Source: Gemmatimonadota bacterium (GTDB lineage Bacteria; GCA-2686955). Taken from it: DNA of 12,587 bases. The DNA is taken from contig NYZA01000094.1 of the NCBI GenBank assembly GCA_002686955.1, positions 1 through 12,587 of the forward strand. The letters run 5' to 3'. Position numbers and translations under genes: made by a program. Shown here one piece after another: positions 2,946 to 8,350 of this stretch (positions within the stretch are counted from its first letter, which is position 1; every line of letters starts with the position of its first letter). The notes under the pieces were generated by a model. The model saw only the letters and a list, made by a program, of their open reading frames with translations. It was not told where the DNA came from and did not search any database.

Positions 2946-3632
2946 ATGAAGTCGCTACTAATCGCACTGGTCCTACTTATAGCGCCGATAGCACGGGGAG
3001 ATGTGTTCACCGCCACGTCTGCTAATGGCTGGACGACCACTGTGGACACGAGCACCGGAGAGGTGCGGCTGTTCTTTGACATGACCGAGCACGGGGACTA
3101 CGTCCAGATCGATGTCGCCACCCCGATGTCCCCGATTCAAACTTGCCTCAGTAGCTCGTGCGATCTACCCAGATCACCGGGCTTTAGCGGGGGCGTGACG
3201 TGGACGGGGCAGAGTTTTCAGGTGCAGTTTGAAGGCGGAGGGCCGTCGCCGCCTGTCAACTGGGTGAGCTGGTCTTGGTGGCCGGAGTATGAGTTTGTGG
3301 GCTTCGAGCTCGTGGAGGACAATATCACCTTCTCGCGGGTCGAGGCCGACGAGGCGAAGTTCACACTCCTGCTGCCCGTGTTCGTGAATCCCGAGGCCGA
3401 CGTTGTGGCTATCACTCGCGCGCGTTACAAGGCGCTGGAACGCAAGCTCATCGTTCGCGCAGTATCCGACAACGAGCTGGCCGTGCTGACCGTGGATGGA
3501 TATGGAGAGATGCGGTGGAATGAAGAAAAGCGCTTCCACCAGCGTGTCTTTAGAGATGTGGACAATCCGGGAGAGGTGACGGTCACGAGTAGTGAAGGGG
3601 ACGAGGATACCGTTGTGGTAGAGGTGCGATGA
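2946..3632 (+). CDS. Secreted beta-rich protein of unknown function
   Basis: A 228-residue exported protein. The ATG is supported by a strong Shine-Dalgarno sequence (AAGGAG at 2933-2938, 7 nt upstream) and by the signal peptide it produces: Lys2, then a hydrophobic stretch to about residue 16, with cleavage likely near ARG-D at 18/19. The mature N-terminal part has two close cysteines (67 and 72, CLSSSC) that could form a disulfide, and a Trp-rich patch at 106-112 (WVSWSWW). Residues about 150-228 resemble the C-terminal Ig-like beta modules of secreted bacterial enzymes: an ITRARYKALERKLIVRAVS strand pattern, then DNPGEVTVTSS and a DTVVVEVR end. No catalytic motif was seen, so binding or a structural role is more likely than an enzyme. 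A conserved hairpin repeat begins 36 bp past the stop. Confidence 0.75.
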   Translation: MKSLLIALVLLIAPIARGDVFTATSANGWTTTVDTSTGEVRLFFDMTEHGDYVQIDVATPMSPIQTCLSSSCDLPRSPGFSGGVTWTGQSFQVQFEGGGPSPPVNWVSWSWWPEYEFVGFELVEDNITFSRVEADEAKFTLLLPVFVNPEADVVAITRARYKALERKLIVRAVSDNELAVLTVDGYGEMRWNEEKRFHQRVFRDVDNPGEVTVTSSEGDEDTVVVEVR

Positions 3633-3667
3633 CGAATCCGCACACCGAGTAGGCGATTCAAGGGGCC

Positions 3668-3732
3668 TTTTCGACATCGCCCCGGAAGGGGCTGATGCGC
3701 TCCGGCGGGGCACACTTGTCAGATCGCTATAG
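3668..3732 (+). repeat. Gene-3'-end hairpin repeat, copy A
   Basis: This copy starts 36 bp after the stop of the secreted-protein gene. It contains two short hairpins, GCCCC-GGAA-GGGGC (3679-3692) and GCTCC-GGC-GGGGC (3699-3711), followed by CACACTTGTCAGATCGCTAT. Bases 3687-3732 match the reverse complement of copy B (5818-5863) at 45 of 46 positions. The one difference lies in a hairpin arm and leaves a G-U pair. There is no U-run, so it is not a classical intrinsic terminator. Confidence 0.85.
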
Positions 3733-4045
3733 TTCAGCGGTGCCGAAGAGGCCGCGTGAATCGGCTAACCGCCATGGTCACGATGCTGGCGGGGCTCGTC
3801 CGGACACGGCAGGACGCCTCACATTGCATTGATCTCCGTCTGATCGATCACCGACCTATCTTCCCCGAATGCACGATCCCTTCCGACATCTCTCCCTGTC
3901 CGAGATCGGAAGTCGCAAAGAGACCTATCGGGCACAGGATCCAATCCTTTGGCAGATCGCCGAGGCGATCGTCTTCATACGAAACCCCTATCGTTGGGGA
4001 GTCGGAAGAACAAGCCCCGTTTTCGGCACCAGCGATCGTAGACAT
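3733..4045. other. Gene-poor stretch between inverted repeat copies A and C
   Basis: These 313 bp lie between two oppositely oriented copies of the hairpin repeat. Short open frames exist on both strands, for example a plus-strand frame near 3869-4040 reading HDPFRHLSLSEIGSRKETY. None has a good ribosome-binding site or a recognisable domain, and the frames run on into copy C. It may be spacer or the core of a small mobile unit. I see no supported gene in it. Confidence 0.4.
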
Positions 4046-4090
4046 TCTGACAAGTGGGCCCAAAGGGGCCCGTTCCGGGGCGATGGCGAA
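4046..4090 (-). repeat. Gene-3'-end hairpin repeat, copy C (diverged, internally shortened)
   Basis: Read on the minus strand it begins TTCGCCATCGCCCCGGAA, matching copy A (TTCGACATCGCCCCGGAA) at all but one position, and ends CACTTGTCAGA, identical to copies A and B. The middle is shortened and altered but still forms a hairpin (GGGCCCCTTTGGGCCC). It lies 62 bp past the stop of the HEAT-like gene, in the same gene-relative orientation as the other copies. Confidence 0.7.
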
Positions 4091-4091
4091 G

Positions 4092-4106
4092 CTCGGCAGA
4101 GCCGAG
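4092..4106 (-). terminator. Short hairpin downstream of the HEAT-like gene
   Basis: CTCGGC-AGA-GCCGAG is a perfect 6-bp stem with a 3-nt loop, 46 bp past the stop at 4153. No U-tract follows, so a termination role is only possible. It directly abuts hairpin repeat copy C and may be part of that structure. Confidence 0.25.
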
Positions 4107-4152
4107 GAAAGGGCCGGCTGACTCGAACATCGTCGCGCCCCCGGCGTCGGTG

Positions 4153-5196
4153 CTAGTCGTCTTCGCGCGGCGGTGGCTCGTCGCCGCGGATCAGCGCCAG
4201 TGCACGCTCGATCTCGTCGAGGAGCCACGTGTCGTCGGACTCGGTGGCGGCCCTGAGTGCCTCTATTGCACCGATGGCGTCAACCGCTGCCGGGCCGTAC
4301 TTCCCTAACGCTTCGACGGCCTTCTCCGAAGGGCTCCAGTCGTGGCCCTCGTCATCCTCGAGCAAGCACATGACGAGCGGGATGAAGTGGGGCGGGTCCA
4401 GCACAAGGCTACCCGCTACACCGGCGGCGTTGCCTCGGATGAACCAATGAGGGCTACGAAGCGCTTGCTCGATTGCCTCGCTGACCAACGAGTTCACGAC
4501 ACCGAGGGCTCCCAAGGTAGAGATCGCACAGCTACGGCTTTCGGGGTCCAGCTCGTCAGACCTCGCCACCTCGAGTAGGCGATCGAGGAGAGGCGCCGCA
4601 GCTTCACCTAGATCCTGAAGCACCGCGCACAGGGCCTGCTTCTCGAGGTCTTCGCCTTCGACAAGAGCCGCTTCGATCTCCGCGACGCGGGCCGGATCCG
4701 CGCGCACCCAGTTCGCCACCGCGTTCCCGAGCTTGTAGGGGATCTCATTGATTCCGTGCCGCGCCATCGTGCGCCGAGCGGTCTCGAAGGAAAAGCCCGC
4801 CGCCGACATCTTCTCCATCAAGCCCGAGGCCACGCGCATCATCTCCGCATCACCCGATTCGAGCAGCTCTTCGATAATCGGCCGAGCTTCTTCGAGATCG
4901 CCTTCGAGGTGCTGCACGATGGAGTAGAGGGCCATGTGGAAGCGCGACTCGGGCGCGTCCACATCGAAGATACTCGGATCATCGAGCTCAATGGCCTCGA
5001 GGAAGCGGCGACGCGCCGCCGCGTAGGCGACCAGAAGCTCCCGGCTCACCGTCGCCGTCAGCTCGGGCCGAAGCACTTCGGGAAGCTGCCCGACCGCCAT
5101 GAGCTCGAAGGCGCCACCGTGCTCCCCCTCCCAACGATCGAGGGCTTCGCTCCGCTCTTCGGCACTTGCCGCATTCGCGAGTTTGCTGAGGCTCAT
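4153..5196 (-). CDS. HEAT-repeat-like alpha-solenoid protein, function unknown
   Basis: A 347-residue, acidic, Ala/Leu/Glu-rich protein with no signal peptide or membrane segment, so probably cytoplasmic. The ATG at 5196 has GGGGAG about 4 nt upstream. The second half looks like tandem HEAT or PBS-lyase-type helical pairs: residues ~205-235 (AAPLLDRLLEVAR... then AISTLGALG), ~240-265 (AIEQALRSPHWFIRGNAAGV), ~270-305 (LVMCLLEDDEGHDWSPSEKA then EALGKYGPAA) and ~308-338 (EALRAATESDDTWLLDEIER). The first half is also helical but unassigned. Such scaffolds usually bind proteins; no catalytic residues are evident. It stands alone on the minus strand between repeats and IS relics, which suggests accessory DNA. 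The C-terminus is a charged tail (PPPREDD). Confidence 0.7.
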   Translation of the reverse strand: MSLSKLANAASAEERSEALDRWEGEHGGAFELMAVGQLPEVLRPELTATVSRELLVAYAAARRRFLEAIELDDPSIFDVDAPESRFHMALYSIVQHLEGDLEEARPIIEELLESGDAEMMRVASGLMEKMSAAGFSFETARRTMARHGINEIPYKLGNAVANWVRADPARVAEIEAALVEGEDLEKQALCAVLQDLGEAAAPLLDRLLEVARSDELDPESRSCAISTLGALGVVNSLVSEAIEQALRSPHWFIRGNAAGVAGSLVLDPPHFIPLVMCLLEDDEGHDWSPSEKAVEALGKYGPAAVDAIGAIEALRAATESDDTWLLDEIERALALIRGDEPPPREDD

Positions 5197-5284
5197 GAGG
5201 CTCCCCTGTGTCGGGTGGGTCCGAGCTGCGGTTGCATTCGGGGGAGAGATCGTCCGGTCGCCACGCGCGCTTGAGGAGTCAACT
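5197..5284. promoter_or_regulatory. Upstream region of the HEAT-like gene
   Basis: This short gap separates the HEAT-like start codon from the stop of a minus-strand gene stub. It holds the GGGGAG ribosome-binding site (about 5201-5206). I found no convincing -35/-10 pair. The gene may once have been transcribed from the now-truncated upstream gene. Confidence 0.3.
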
Positions 5285-5404
5285 TCAGTCGAAGTAACCC
5301 TCTTGAATTGGCGTCACCCCGGCCATCTCCCCGCGTTCCAGAAAGACGACGTTCTTCCGAATGCAGCCGGTGTCGGGGTCGACCAGGACCCCGTGAAGGT
5401 CTCG
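5285..5404 (-). pseudogene. C-terminal stub of an unidentified gene, cut at an IS end
   Basis: On the minus strand a frame ending in TGA (5285-5287) encodes a protein-like tail: DLHGVLVDPDTGCIRKNV, then VFLERGEMAGVTPIQEGYFD. The readable part stops at 5404, exactly where the inverted end (GTAGTGTG) of the adjoining IS relic begins. The other part of the gene is not found beyond the far end of the relic at 5811, so the interruption was followed by deletion or rearrangement. I do not recognise the family. The stub lies in the same direction as the HEAT-like gene, 88 bp upstream of it. Confidence 0.45.
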
Positions 5405-5428
5405 TAGTGTGGAAGAAGTCAGCCGAAC
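5404..5428 (+). repeat. IS-end repeat family, copy 1
   Basis: GTAGTGTGGAAGAAGTCAGC followed by CGAAC is the plus-strand copy of an end shared with 5791-5811, 7344-7364 and 8330-8350, with one extra base relative to them. It marks the point where the upstream gene stub is broken. Confidence 0.6.
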
Positions 5429-5596
5429 TAGAACATTCACAACTTCAGGAGCTTACGCGAGGGCCAGGTCTACGGTTTCGGCCCAATTCTCCAGGTCTCA
5501 CTGGCCTAACCTCAGGCTAATGAACGCTCTGCCGCTGTAATTCCTGATACTGAGCTTCGCTGGCTGGGTCAATCGACACCAGGAGGCCGTGATTGA

Positions 5597-5784
5597 GAGA
5601 GATTCGTGCGCTCCATCCAATCGGAGTGTCTGTCCCAGATCATCTCTTTGGGAGAGCGGAATCGTCAGGGGCTCGGCAATCGGCTGATCGAGGAACAGCC
5701 AGGTGTCGTCGACATAGAGTCCGCCGTTGTGCGTCGTGAAAGGCTGGGCGGGTCCTCAACTACTACGCAAGGAGGGCCGCCTAG
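5597..5784 (+). pseudogene. rve-type (IS3/IS481-like) transposase C-terminal remnant
   Basis: The frame reads ERFVRSIQSECLSQIISLGE, then RNRQGLGNRLIEE and VVRRERLGG. This is the end of the integrase-core domain plus the C-terminal tail of rve transposases. Compared with the usual pattern, about 20 residues are missing between GER and RNRQGL, consistent with a small deletion between two similar GAGCG-type codon runs. The expected tail continues only after a frameshift near 5750, in a frame reading LNYYARRAA and ending at TAG 5782-5784. A stop (TGA, 5594-5596) precedes it in frame. Not functional. Confidence 0.75.
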
Positions 5785-5790
5785 ACGGTC

Positions 5791-5811
5791 GTCTGAGTTC
5801 TTGCACACTAC
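5791..5811 (-). repeat. IS-end repeat family, copy 2
   Basis: Minus-strand copy, GTAGTGTGCAAGAACTCAGA. It forms the inverted partner of 5404-5428 and lies 6 bp from hairpin repeat copy B. Confidence 0.65.
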
Positions 5812-5817
5812 GCCGAG

Positions 5818-5871
5818 CTATAGCGATCTGACAAGTGTGCCCCGCCGGGGCGCATCAGCCCCTCTTGGGGC
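5818..5871 (-). repeat. Gene-3'-end hairpin repeat, copy B
   Basis: It begins 15 bp past the stop of the HAF/PEP-CTERM gene. It has two perfect hairpins read on the minus strand, GCCCC-AAGA-GGGGC (5858-5871) and GCCCC-GGC-GGGGC (5839-5851). It is 45/46 identical to copy A over 5818-5863, in inverted orientation. The loop of the first hairpin differs from copy A while its stem is unchanged. Confidence 0.85.
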
Positions 5872-5886
5872 GTAGAAGGTCGAGCC

Positions 5887-7062
5887 TCACTGCTCGACGG
5901 GTGCGCTGCGTGTCCATGCGAGTCCGACGAGACCCGCGAGGACCAGGAGAGCGGTGCTGGGCTCGGGGATCACGGCGATGAAGGGCCGGCGCGCACCTTC
6001 GGGACCGCGCGCGACCCCGACAATGGTTGTTCCATCTGCGGAGATGCCGCTTGCCGTCCATAAGTGCCAGCCGCCGAGATCGACACCCAGCGCCGTCAAC
6101 AAGACCTCGAGAGACTTGGCGCCGCTTTCGCGATCCCAGACGAATGCCGCCGACCCGGCCAAGTCCGTTTGGTACCCGGGATCAGCCAGGTCAGAGCTGA
6201 ACCGGCCCACGACGAGGGCGCCGTCGGCAGAAACGTCGCGCGGGGAAATATTCTCCACTGTACCCGGCAGGCTCCGCCCGATCCTGCGCAGACCGCTCTT
6301 CTCGTCCCAGATCCACATCAACGAATCGCCCTGCCGATCGCCGATCACCGTCGAGCCGTCGCCCGAAATCGCGATCACTTGACCAGGCTCTGCATCCGGC
6401 GTGAGATAGCGCATCCCGTTCTTGGCATCCCAGATGAAGGGAACCGTGTACCAATAACTTGAGCTTCGACAGCAGCTCGCAGCCTCCCAGTCGTTGCCGA
6501 CAATGACCGAGCCGTCCGCGGACACGTCGACGGCAGAGCTGATGAACACGTGCTCTCCCAGGTGACCGAGGCCCTGCATGCCGTCGACGGGATCCCATCG
6601 GAGCGCCTCCGTTCCGCGCGCGCCCCACGACTCTCCCACGATGACGGTTCCGTCGGCGGACATGCCGTATGCAGCGGCGTAACTGCGGTCCTCGTCTCTC
6701 AGCGTTCCCAGTCGCTCGAAGCCAGTTTCTGCGCTCCAGACGTACGCATCGTTGACCCAGTTGCCTGCAATTCGGGAGCCGTCGGCCGAGACCGCAGGCG
6801 CGGTACGGAGCGATACGACTCCGGACTCTTCGAGCAGGCGGTAGCCCTCGCCCGCGCTCCACGAAAATGCGCGTGTCTGATAGGCCCCGATCTGCGCGTA
6901 CCCAGTGAACGTCGAGCCGTCGTCGGAGAGCGGGGTCAGGCCGCTGATGGACACGCCATCTGGCATGGGCCCGAGGATCTCGAGGGAAGCTGCCAGCGAA
7001 GCCGACGTCGAGGCCACTGGGCTCATCAACACGATCAGGGCAAGGAAGAGTCTGACAGGCAA
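5887..7062 (-). CDS. HAF-repeat extracellular protein with PEP-CTERM sorting signal
   Basis: A 391-residue exported protein. The start is TTG (7060-7062) with GAGGGG about 6-7 nt upstream. This start gives a proper signal peptide (VRLFLALIVLMSPVASTSA), which the next Met at residue 13 would destroy. The body consists of about seven repeats built on SADGSxxxG, near residues 47, 92, 135, 181, 233, 278 and 341, alternating with FxWxxxxGxxxL segments, as in HAF-family extracellular repeats that form propeller-like folds. The C-terminus is VIPEPSTALLVLAGLVGLAW, a PEP motif (366-368) plus a membrane segment, followed by one Arg. This marks the protein for exosortase/archaeosortase-type processing at the cell surface. 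The tail is less basic than usual. Neighbouring CysCys at 197-198 is unusual for the repeats. The exosortase itself is not in this window. Confidence 0.85.
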   Translation of the reverse strand: MPVRLFLALIVLMSPVASTSASLAASLEILGPMPDGVSISGLTPLSDDGSTFTGYAQIGAYQTRAFSWSAGEGYRLLEESGVVSLRTAPAVSADGSRIAGNWVNDAYVWSAETGFERLGTLRDEDRSYAAAYGMSADGTVIVGESWGARGTEALRWDPVDGMQGLGHLGEHVFISSAVDVSADGSVIVGNDWEAASCCRSSSYWYTVPFIWDAKNGMRYLTPDAEPGQVIAISGDGSTVIGDRQGDSLMWIWDEKSGLRRIGRSLPGTVENISPRDVSADGALVVGRFSSDLADPGYQTDLAGSAAFVWDRESGAKSLEVLLTALGVDLGGWHLWTASGISADGTTIVGVARGPEGARRPFIAVIPEPSTALLVLAGLVGLAWTRSAPVEQ

Positions 7063-7457
7063 GCGAATCCCCTCGGCGAAGCGGGGGTGTAGGGATGTGG
7101 TCGCCAGCCTCCTGAAATGTCGAGCTTTCGTAGCCGCAGATCGACGAGTGCGACCTGTCGCGCCGACGAGCCAGTGGGTAGGAATCGCCGCGGTCGGTCG
7201 CCGGGGGGAATCGAAGCGGTCTCTGAATTGAAGTGCTGTAGCCGATTCATCGGCTCACTCGCTTGCGCAATGACTCGCAAGTCGGCTGATCTGCGGCACA
7301 TCGACAGCGAGGCAAACGGCCGATTTCGTATCGGATTCCGACCGGCCGACTCTTTGCACACTACGCGATTCATGCTCCATCCGTGCCAGCAATGAATGCA
7401 GACAACCGCGAAAGCCAGCGCCCCACGAGGTACGAAACGGCCACAGGCCCGGGCGAC
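7063..7457. other. Intergenic region between divergent HAF gene and vapBC
   Basis: About 400 bp between two genes transcribed away from each other, so both promoters are expected here. Apart from the HAF ribosome-binding site (about 7069-7074) and the vapBC promoter to the right, the only clear structure is a solitary IS-end repeat at 7344-7364 with nearby CGGCCG palindromes and a CCGAT-TTCGT-ATCGG hairpin (7319-7333). Open frames on both strands here lack start signals and recognisable domains. Confidence 0.5.
7344..7364 (-). repeat. IS-end repeat family, copy 3 (solitary)
   Basis: The minus strand reads GTAGTGTGCAAAGAGTCGGC plus C. It is 19/21 identical to 8330-8350, in the same orientation. 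Together they flank vapBC as direct repeats about 965 bp apart. No transposase is attached. Confidence 0.7.
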
Positions 7458-7507: not shown

Positions 7508-7780
7508 ATGCCGAATGACTCCCGAATGACCGTGCGACTCGATCCGGCGACCCGTCGCAAGGTGGAACTGCTCGCTGCCCGGGAAGGCATCTCCCTGAAT
7601 GAGGCGCTCAATCGACTCCTGCGACGAGCAGAGGACGACGTCAAGTCCACATCCAACCGCAAGCGATACCGGTTGAAGCCCCGCAAAGTCGGATTCGGCT
7701 TTGACATCGGGCATGCGAAGCGAATCGCTGCGGAGATGTCCGAGCTCGAGACACTCGAGAAGGTAAAGGGGCGACGTTGA
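7508..7780 (+). CDS. vapB: VapB-like ribbon-helix-helix antitoxin
   Basis: A 90-residue antitoxin. Residues about 6-42 (MTVRLDPATRRKVELLAARE, then GISLNEALNRLLRRA) are a CopG/Arc-type ribbon-helix-helix DNA-binding domain: a short beta strand followed by two helices. The C-terminal half is basic then acidic (KRYRLKPRKVGFGFDIGHAK, MSELETLEKVKGRR) and would wrap and neutralise the toxin. The ATG at 7508 follows a near-perfect TAAGGAGGTG (7493-7502). The stop overlaps the toxin start (TTGA), so the two genes are translationally coupled. The protein should repress its own promoter through the palindrome immediately upstream. Confidence 0.88.
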   Translation: MPNDSRMTVRLDPATRRKVELLAAREGISLNEALNRLLRRAEDDVKSTSNRKRYRLKPRKVGFGFDIGHAKRIAAEMSELETLEKVKGRR

Positions 7781-8211
7781 AGATCGCCGACGTTCAGATC
7801 CTCTTCTATGCGATCGATCGGACCGCTGACCTGCACGCGGTCGCTGTCCGCTGGCTCGAGGATGCGATCAACGCTCGTGAGCCAATGGGACTCGCATGGC
7901 CGACGATTCACCAATTCCTTCGATTGGGAACGAACCGGGCCTATCCAGGGGCGATGTCGGAGGACGAGGCACTCGACTGGGTCAGCGATTGGGTCGACGC
8001 CGGCGTGGCACTGGTTCCTGACTCAGAAACGACTTGGGCGCTATTTCACGAACTCGTCACCGCCTCGCCGAGGACGCTGCGGAACTCTATTGATGACGCT
8101 CATCTCGCAGCGATCGCAATCTCCCGCGGCGCCACACTCGTTTCTTTTGATTCAGACTTCGCGGTTTTCGCTGACCATGGGCTGCGCTGGGAGCATCTCA
8201 GGGCGCCGTGA
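7777..8211 (+). CDS. vapC: VapC-like PIN-domain toxin ribonuclease
   Basis: A 144-residue PIN-domain protein, the usual VapC size. It starts at TTG 7777, overlapping the antitoxin stop by 4 nt. Visible acidic residues are Asp5 (IADVQILFYAID), Asp106/Asp107 (IDDAHLAAIAISRGATL) and Asp125/Asp127 (SFDSDFAVF). The overall order, including PTIHQFLRLGTN near 42-53 and the C-terminal LRWEHLRAP, matches the subgroup first described in Mycobacterium (Mtu_PIN type). In that subgroup the internal Glu is often absent, and here it is replaced by His45-Gln46. It is expected to be a Mg2+-dependent endoribonuclease, possibly cutting tRNA or rRNA, held inactive by VapB. The target is not predictable from sequence. 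Confidence 0.88.
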   Translation: MKIADVQILFYAIDRTADLHAVAVRWLEDAINAREPMGLAWPTIHQFLRLGTNRAYPGAMSEDEALDWVSDWVDAGVALVPDSETTWALFHELVTASPRTLRNSIDDAHLAAIAISRGATLVSFDSDFAVFADHGLRWEHLRAP

Positions 8212-8329
8212 TCAGCTAGCCCACGTGTCGATCAGACCGAGGCCCGGCCTGCGCGAGGCGCGGAAAGATCAACTGAAATCGCAGATCTGACATTCGCCTA
8301 AGCACCTTATGTCGCGCATGTTTTGGTTC

Positions 8330-8350
8330 GGCCGAGTCTTGGCACACTAC
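8330..8350 (-). repeat. IS-end repeat family, copy 4 (solitary)
   Basis: The minus strand reads GTAGTGTGCCAAGACTCGGC plus C. It lies 119 bp downstream of vapC, in the same orientation as 7344-7364. No transposase sequence adjoins it. The remaining 8212-8472 has no supported gene. Confidence 0.7.

Follow-up and report, generated by a model that had tools for sequence, protein, structure and literature searches.

Published REP elements are intergenic and lie close to gene 3' ends (PMC3733652), and the Rickettsia palindromic elements (RPE) are palindromes of 105-146 bp bounded by terminal inverted repeats and also occur fused to an RNase P RNA gene (PMC2229807). Here we analyze a repeat from a 4.28-Mb draft genome of 270 contigs that is 84.5% complete. 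The window, i.e. the whole stretch of DNA under study, is the 12,587-nt contig C94 of this assembly. The repeat probably constitutes a minor, mostly decayed, non-autonomous MITE-like palindromic family with a length of about 120 nt when complete, as in its copy A. It is one among several palindromic families in a repeat-rich genome, and a cellular function at gene ends is not needed to explain it.

An initial annotation of the window had described three hairpin-bearing copies, A, C and B, just past the stop codons of three unrelated genes. They do lie 36, 62 and 15 bp past these stops, as evidenced by the open reading frames and by a simple codon-usage script for gene calling that recovered the window's six main genes, including those beside the three copies (Table 1). 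All three are also found in the claimed single orientation relative to the gene, although for three copies the chance of this is 1 in 4. The similarity of A, B and C exceeds chance, as the core 11-mer TCTGACAAGTG has three exact occurrences in the 4.28-Mb genome, all of them in the window, against none for the reversed control, and as A matches B with an E value of 3.9e-18 in the genome search. The reported core identity of A and B, 45/46 bases, was reproduced, and over a longer match (3678-3739 and 5811-5872) 56 of 62 positions agree (90%). The single core difference, said to be rescued by a G-U pair, is so on the gene-sense strand only and is a C-A mismatch on the opposite one. Copy C is nearest to a recent subfamily found on contigs C72 and C15, with an identity of 80-85%, and of 82-85% to the C72 copies. 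Note that A and C occupy the same gap between two convergent genes, where an insert is necessarily 'past the stop' of either gene. The repeat is real and was correctly described, but its unit is larger (84-124 nt) and the rule that it sits at gene ends fails.

Table 1. Positions of the repeat copies, their neighboring genes and related elements (window coordinates unless a contig or sample locus is named).
Feature	Position	Strand	Remarks
Probable secreted-protein gene	2946-3632	+	signal-peptide-like start; stop 36 bp before copy A as initially delimited; Pfam search of the product without match
Outer arm of A	3646-3676	+	recurs alone at C59:8856-8886, 90% identity over 31 nt
Copy A	3648-3771	-	fullest copy; core 3678-3762; initially delimited as 3668-3732; R1 model match 3679-3762, E 2.8e-15
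Copy C	3996-4093	+	inverted relative to A; R1 model match 3997-4081, E 2.0e-19
HEAT-repeat protein gene	4153-5196	-	PF13646 HEAT_2, E 2.7e-8; stop 62 bp from copy C as initially delimited
Internally deleted IS	5403-5812	+	integrase-core type, IS481- or IS3-like; 24-bp terminal inverted repeats; abuts B
Copy B	5811-5876	+	left side cut at the end of the IS remnant; R1 model match 5811-5870, E 8.6e-8
PEP-CTERM protein gene	5887-7062	-	PF07589, 20.0 bits, just under the cut-off of 20.7; stop 15 bp from copy B as initially delimited
Near-perfect palindromes (examples)	L203:13162-13351, L209:11210-11399, L231:411-598, L239:126-294, L172:5605-5782		from the sample of the same genome

Within the genome the repeat is a dispersed element of 84-124 nt with ten copies, three in the window, four on C72 and three on C15, and these three of the 270 contigs together amount to 33 kb. 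A genome search with copy B yielded one further copy on C15, and comparing its flank with C by eye showed that the unit reaches upstream to a common TTTTCGGCACC block. The search with this extended form retrieved the recent 84-nt subfamily, with four members on C72 and two on C15 that are near identical; the core is the same in five of the six, and one has a single inserted base. The ten copies fall into two subfamilies and have sharp common ends and unrelated flanks; a sequence-only covariance model retrieved exactly this set from the genome. Its application to 290 other genomes, just one of them from the same phylum, gave nothing convincing, two weak matches (E 0.0015 and 0.0099) being at chance level for so many genomes. 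No copy was found in plasmids and viral contigs, and scanning 1.58 Mb of the genome under study did not reveal an eleventh. Exact 17-18-mer scans of collections of genome contigs and viral contigs returned four matches that lacked hairpins and were hence taken as chance; plasmid searches gave nothing or chance-level matches of 24-28 nt, mostly inside genes, and viral scans with the outer arm and the core were empty or at chance.

The unit consists, in this order, of an outer arm (GGGGARTAGG.GATTCAAGC.GCGTTTTCSGCACC), a variable stretch, TGACAAGT, a first hairpin and a second hairpin. The first, GCCC..GGGC, is predicted in four of five distinct forms, C retaining it, and in the fifth merges into a longer stem. 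The second, which ends near TTCCGGGGC, is predicted in A and B only and not in the recent copies. In A, the outer arms TAGGCGATTCAAGGGGCCTTTTCGACA and TAGCCGATTCACGCGGCCTCTTCGGCA close one long hairpin over 124 nt, with predicted folding energies of -62.4 and -53.5 kcal/mol on the two strands (z -4.74 and -4.26) that none of 200 shuffled sequences equaled. For most copies z is near 0; C and the C72 copy that was tested are almost indistinguishable from shuffled sequences, and B falls in between (z -2.5 and -1.35). The second arm, and with it the terminal inverted repeats, is present in A only, the other nine copies having one arm or none. Inspection by eye of those recent copies that have both flanks showed no target-site duplication, while A is flanked by a possible 2-bp TA on both sides. 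No Rfam match coincides with the repeat in the window, and a search for tRNA-like structures was negative. An interpretation of the arm as a protein C-terminus (K.RF.H.R*) was dropped, other reading frames being equally consistent.

A stop codon within 62 bp is a feature of the window copies alone. Of the seven others none was assignable to the vicinity of a gene 3' end, and six lie between genes or directly beside truncated ones. The truncated neighbors on C72 and C15 comprise an IS3-like orfB, an IS1182-like fragment, an HTH transposase, a DUF4011 gene and a probable tyrosine-recombinase pseudogene, the last recognized by eye and without a Pfam or NCBIfam match. Beside several copies the gene is cut at the copy and does not continue on the other side. 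As genes are truncated on both sides, simple insertion is no explanation, and recombination between copies or assembly joins are possible causes. The four C72 copies have the same orientation and are spaced by 2-5.6 kb. At one of them the 3' half of an RNase P RNA ends exactly (L092:6956-7194, minus strand), the sole Rfam match on this contig. The assembly also has an intact RNase P RNA, on C225 (L230:4407-4791, plus strand), to which this half is only about 65% identical (144/221 columns). Judging from this sequence difference, C72 may be an island of foreign DNA or a contig that was binned wrongly, and if so the two subfamilies may belong to different genomes. The G+C content of C72 and C15 is below that of the sampled genome. 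The two contigs also share an identical stretch of 58 nt (L092:41-98 on C72, L038:7199-7256 on C15) that is joined to two unrelated truncated genes and, read from the gene side, begins with CTAGCCCGAAT, resembling the end of an abundant palindrome (CTAGCCCGCAT).

The window contains further mobile remnants. The internally deleted IS next to B has its inverted pair at 5403-5426 and 5789-5812 and shows 72% identity over 194 nt with the left end of an IS at C75:2087-2280. A second repeat family in the window (5403-5812, 7343-7368 and 8329-8350) represents terminal inverted repeats (CTTTGCACACTACG) of this decayed integrase-core IS, whose left end with the transposase is found on C75. Remnants of another IS transposase at 2146-2553 are 80-85% identical to parts of C75:2737-3484, and a toxin-antitoxin-like pair at 7508-8211 (a weak HicB-type match and a PIN domain) has IS end repeats on both sides.

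These data bear on the suggestion of the initial annotation that selection acts on structure at RNA 3' ends. Hairpins in the mRNA would then act as terminator or stabilizer of the upstream gene, REP-like in function, in agreement with three equally oriented copies 15-62 bp past a stop, of which A and B fold both hairpins and C keeps the first. We nevertheless regard this as very unlikely. Folding is no better than that of shuffled sequences in most copies, the second hairpin is not predicted in the recent ones, A and C occupy a single convergent intergenic region, and the placeable copies outside the window are intergenic or at truncated genes, without regard to gene ends. A plain terminator had already been doubted for want of a U-run, and indeed there is no U-tract, nor a single site combining a G+C-rich hairpin with a U-tract between 3500 and 6000. 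A role as gene-end signal would have made the repeat a new element of RNA or recombination, and the evidence removes most of that prospect.

A folded recombination site, attC-like or of another single-strand or tyrosine-recombinase type, was the second structural option. Copies would then mark the boundaries of joined cassettes, for which the directly oriented C72 copies, the unrelated truncated genes that abut copies and the RNase P RNA half that stops at one copy could be taken as signs. An attC-like nature did not stand up, in that no pair of RYYYAAC ... GTTRRRY (R''/R') boxes is present at any copy on either strand and no TIGR02249 match for an integron integrase above cut-off was obtained in this 84.5% complete genome. 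In addition, A and C are mutually inverted, and several segments carry decayed IS genes, so that we hold this reading to be improbable. The narrower proposal that the 84-nt form is the recombination site of an unknown system, joining unrelated segments at the hairpin end, would produce truncated genes on both sides and direct repeats every 2-5.6 kb; to us it is highly improbable. The repeat might also derive, as a relic, from the ends of an IS200/IS605-type (HUH) element with a Y1 transposase, as proposed for REPs. The initial annotation had advised looking for a Y1 transposase with the repeat beside it, and the only such gene of the genome (Y1_Tnp match C59:8842-9117) is indeed joined to the outer arm, but it is truncated, the isolated arm sitting at the truncation point. 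As tnpA is cut within its coding sequence, the arm resembles an insertion or a junction and not the natural end of an element. The lack of a visible target duplication at the recent copies and the hairpin that terminates A and B would suit such an origin, whereas the foot of the first hairpin bears no GTAG or CGTC tag in any copy (only in B is the second hairpin followed by GTAG) and an intact Y1 transposase flanked by the repeat was not found in the 84.5% complete genome. An origin of this type appears unlikely.

The MITE option of the initial annotation fits best, with dispersed copies, a palindromic fullest copy and a palindrome-rich genome, although its insertion specifically at gene ends does not hold. 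A full-length IS with the repeat as its ends and with target duplications was looked for and not found, and a pattern search of the own genome (up to 3 mismatches; assembly 84.5% complete) gave no parent IS sharing these ends, which leaves the assignment to MITEs incomplete. For a MITE-like family, copies would have been spread by a transposase acting in trans on folded or inverted ends, and this enzyme may since have been lost or may be absent from the assembly. Copies beside stop codons would persist if insertion there does little harm. Further findings also stand against the MITE-like reading: both arms occur in A alone, the copies are clustered on three contigs, unlike the abundant families, and the truncated genes do not continue past them. 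The repeat is a new palindromic family in a poorly sampled phylum.

The abundant repeats were assessed in a 1.63-Mb sample, 38% of the genome, on which all abundance figures rest. All-against-all comparison delivered 399 short repeat loci and 19 families with at least three members. Several kinds are near-perfect palindromes of 160-190 nt with predicted folds of -67 to -147 kcal/mol. In one large family, 38 of 52 loci are at contig ends. The largest lies mostly between genes, and 73 of its loci were assigned to a gap flanked by two genes (44 unidirectional, 17 convergent, 12 divergent). From these, on the basis of the codon-usage gene calls, gene 3' ends are a median of 79 bp away and 5' ends 226 bp. 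In the abundant AGGGTCC family, a check for target duplications detected an exact 3-bp end repeat in only 5 of 16 strict copies. Since both the largest family and published REPs prefer the space behind genes, the pattern in the window is a usual one for such repeats. Our repeat is like these families in kind, and no sequence link to the abundant palindromic ones emerged. The 160-190 nt palindromes are probably more interesting than the original finding, and their abundance would help to study the spread of such elements and what maintains them near gene 3' ends.

In comparison with known systems, the repeat is neither a REP/RAYT element nor an attC site nor an intrinsic terminator. With attC it shares an imperfectly palindromic folded form and, in the window, the proximity to gene ends, and it differs from the sites of integrons in having no R''/R' boxes, no integrase above cut-off and copies of mixed orientation in the window. 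Hairpins and an intergenic position near gene 3' ends recall REPs and REPINs (PMC3733652). Those with a RAYT usually exceed 100 copies of 20-40 nt, whereas here there are ten copies of 84-124 nt, no GTAG or CGTC at the hairpin foot and no intact Y1 gene. The copy that abuts RNase P RNA on C72 is reminiscent of RPE, but that RNA is broken and has no insert inside, and the likeness to RPE is one of form, no relation in sequence having emerged. Unlike MITEs, the repeat came without a detectable parent IS or target duplication, and nine of ten copies are without the second arm. As in MITEs, including ERIC-like palindromes, it is short, non-coding and dispersed, its fullest copy is palindromic, and it resides in a genome with hundreds of repeats of similar size.
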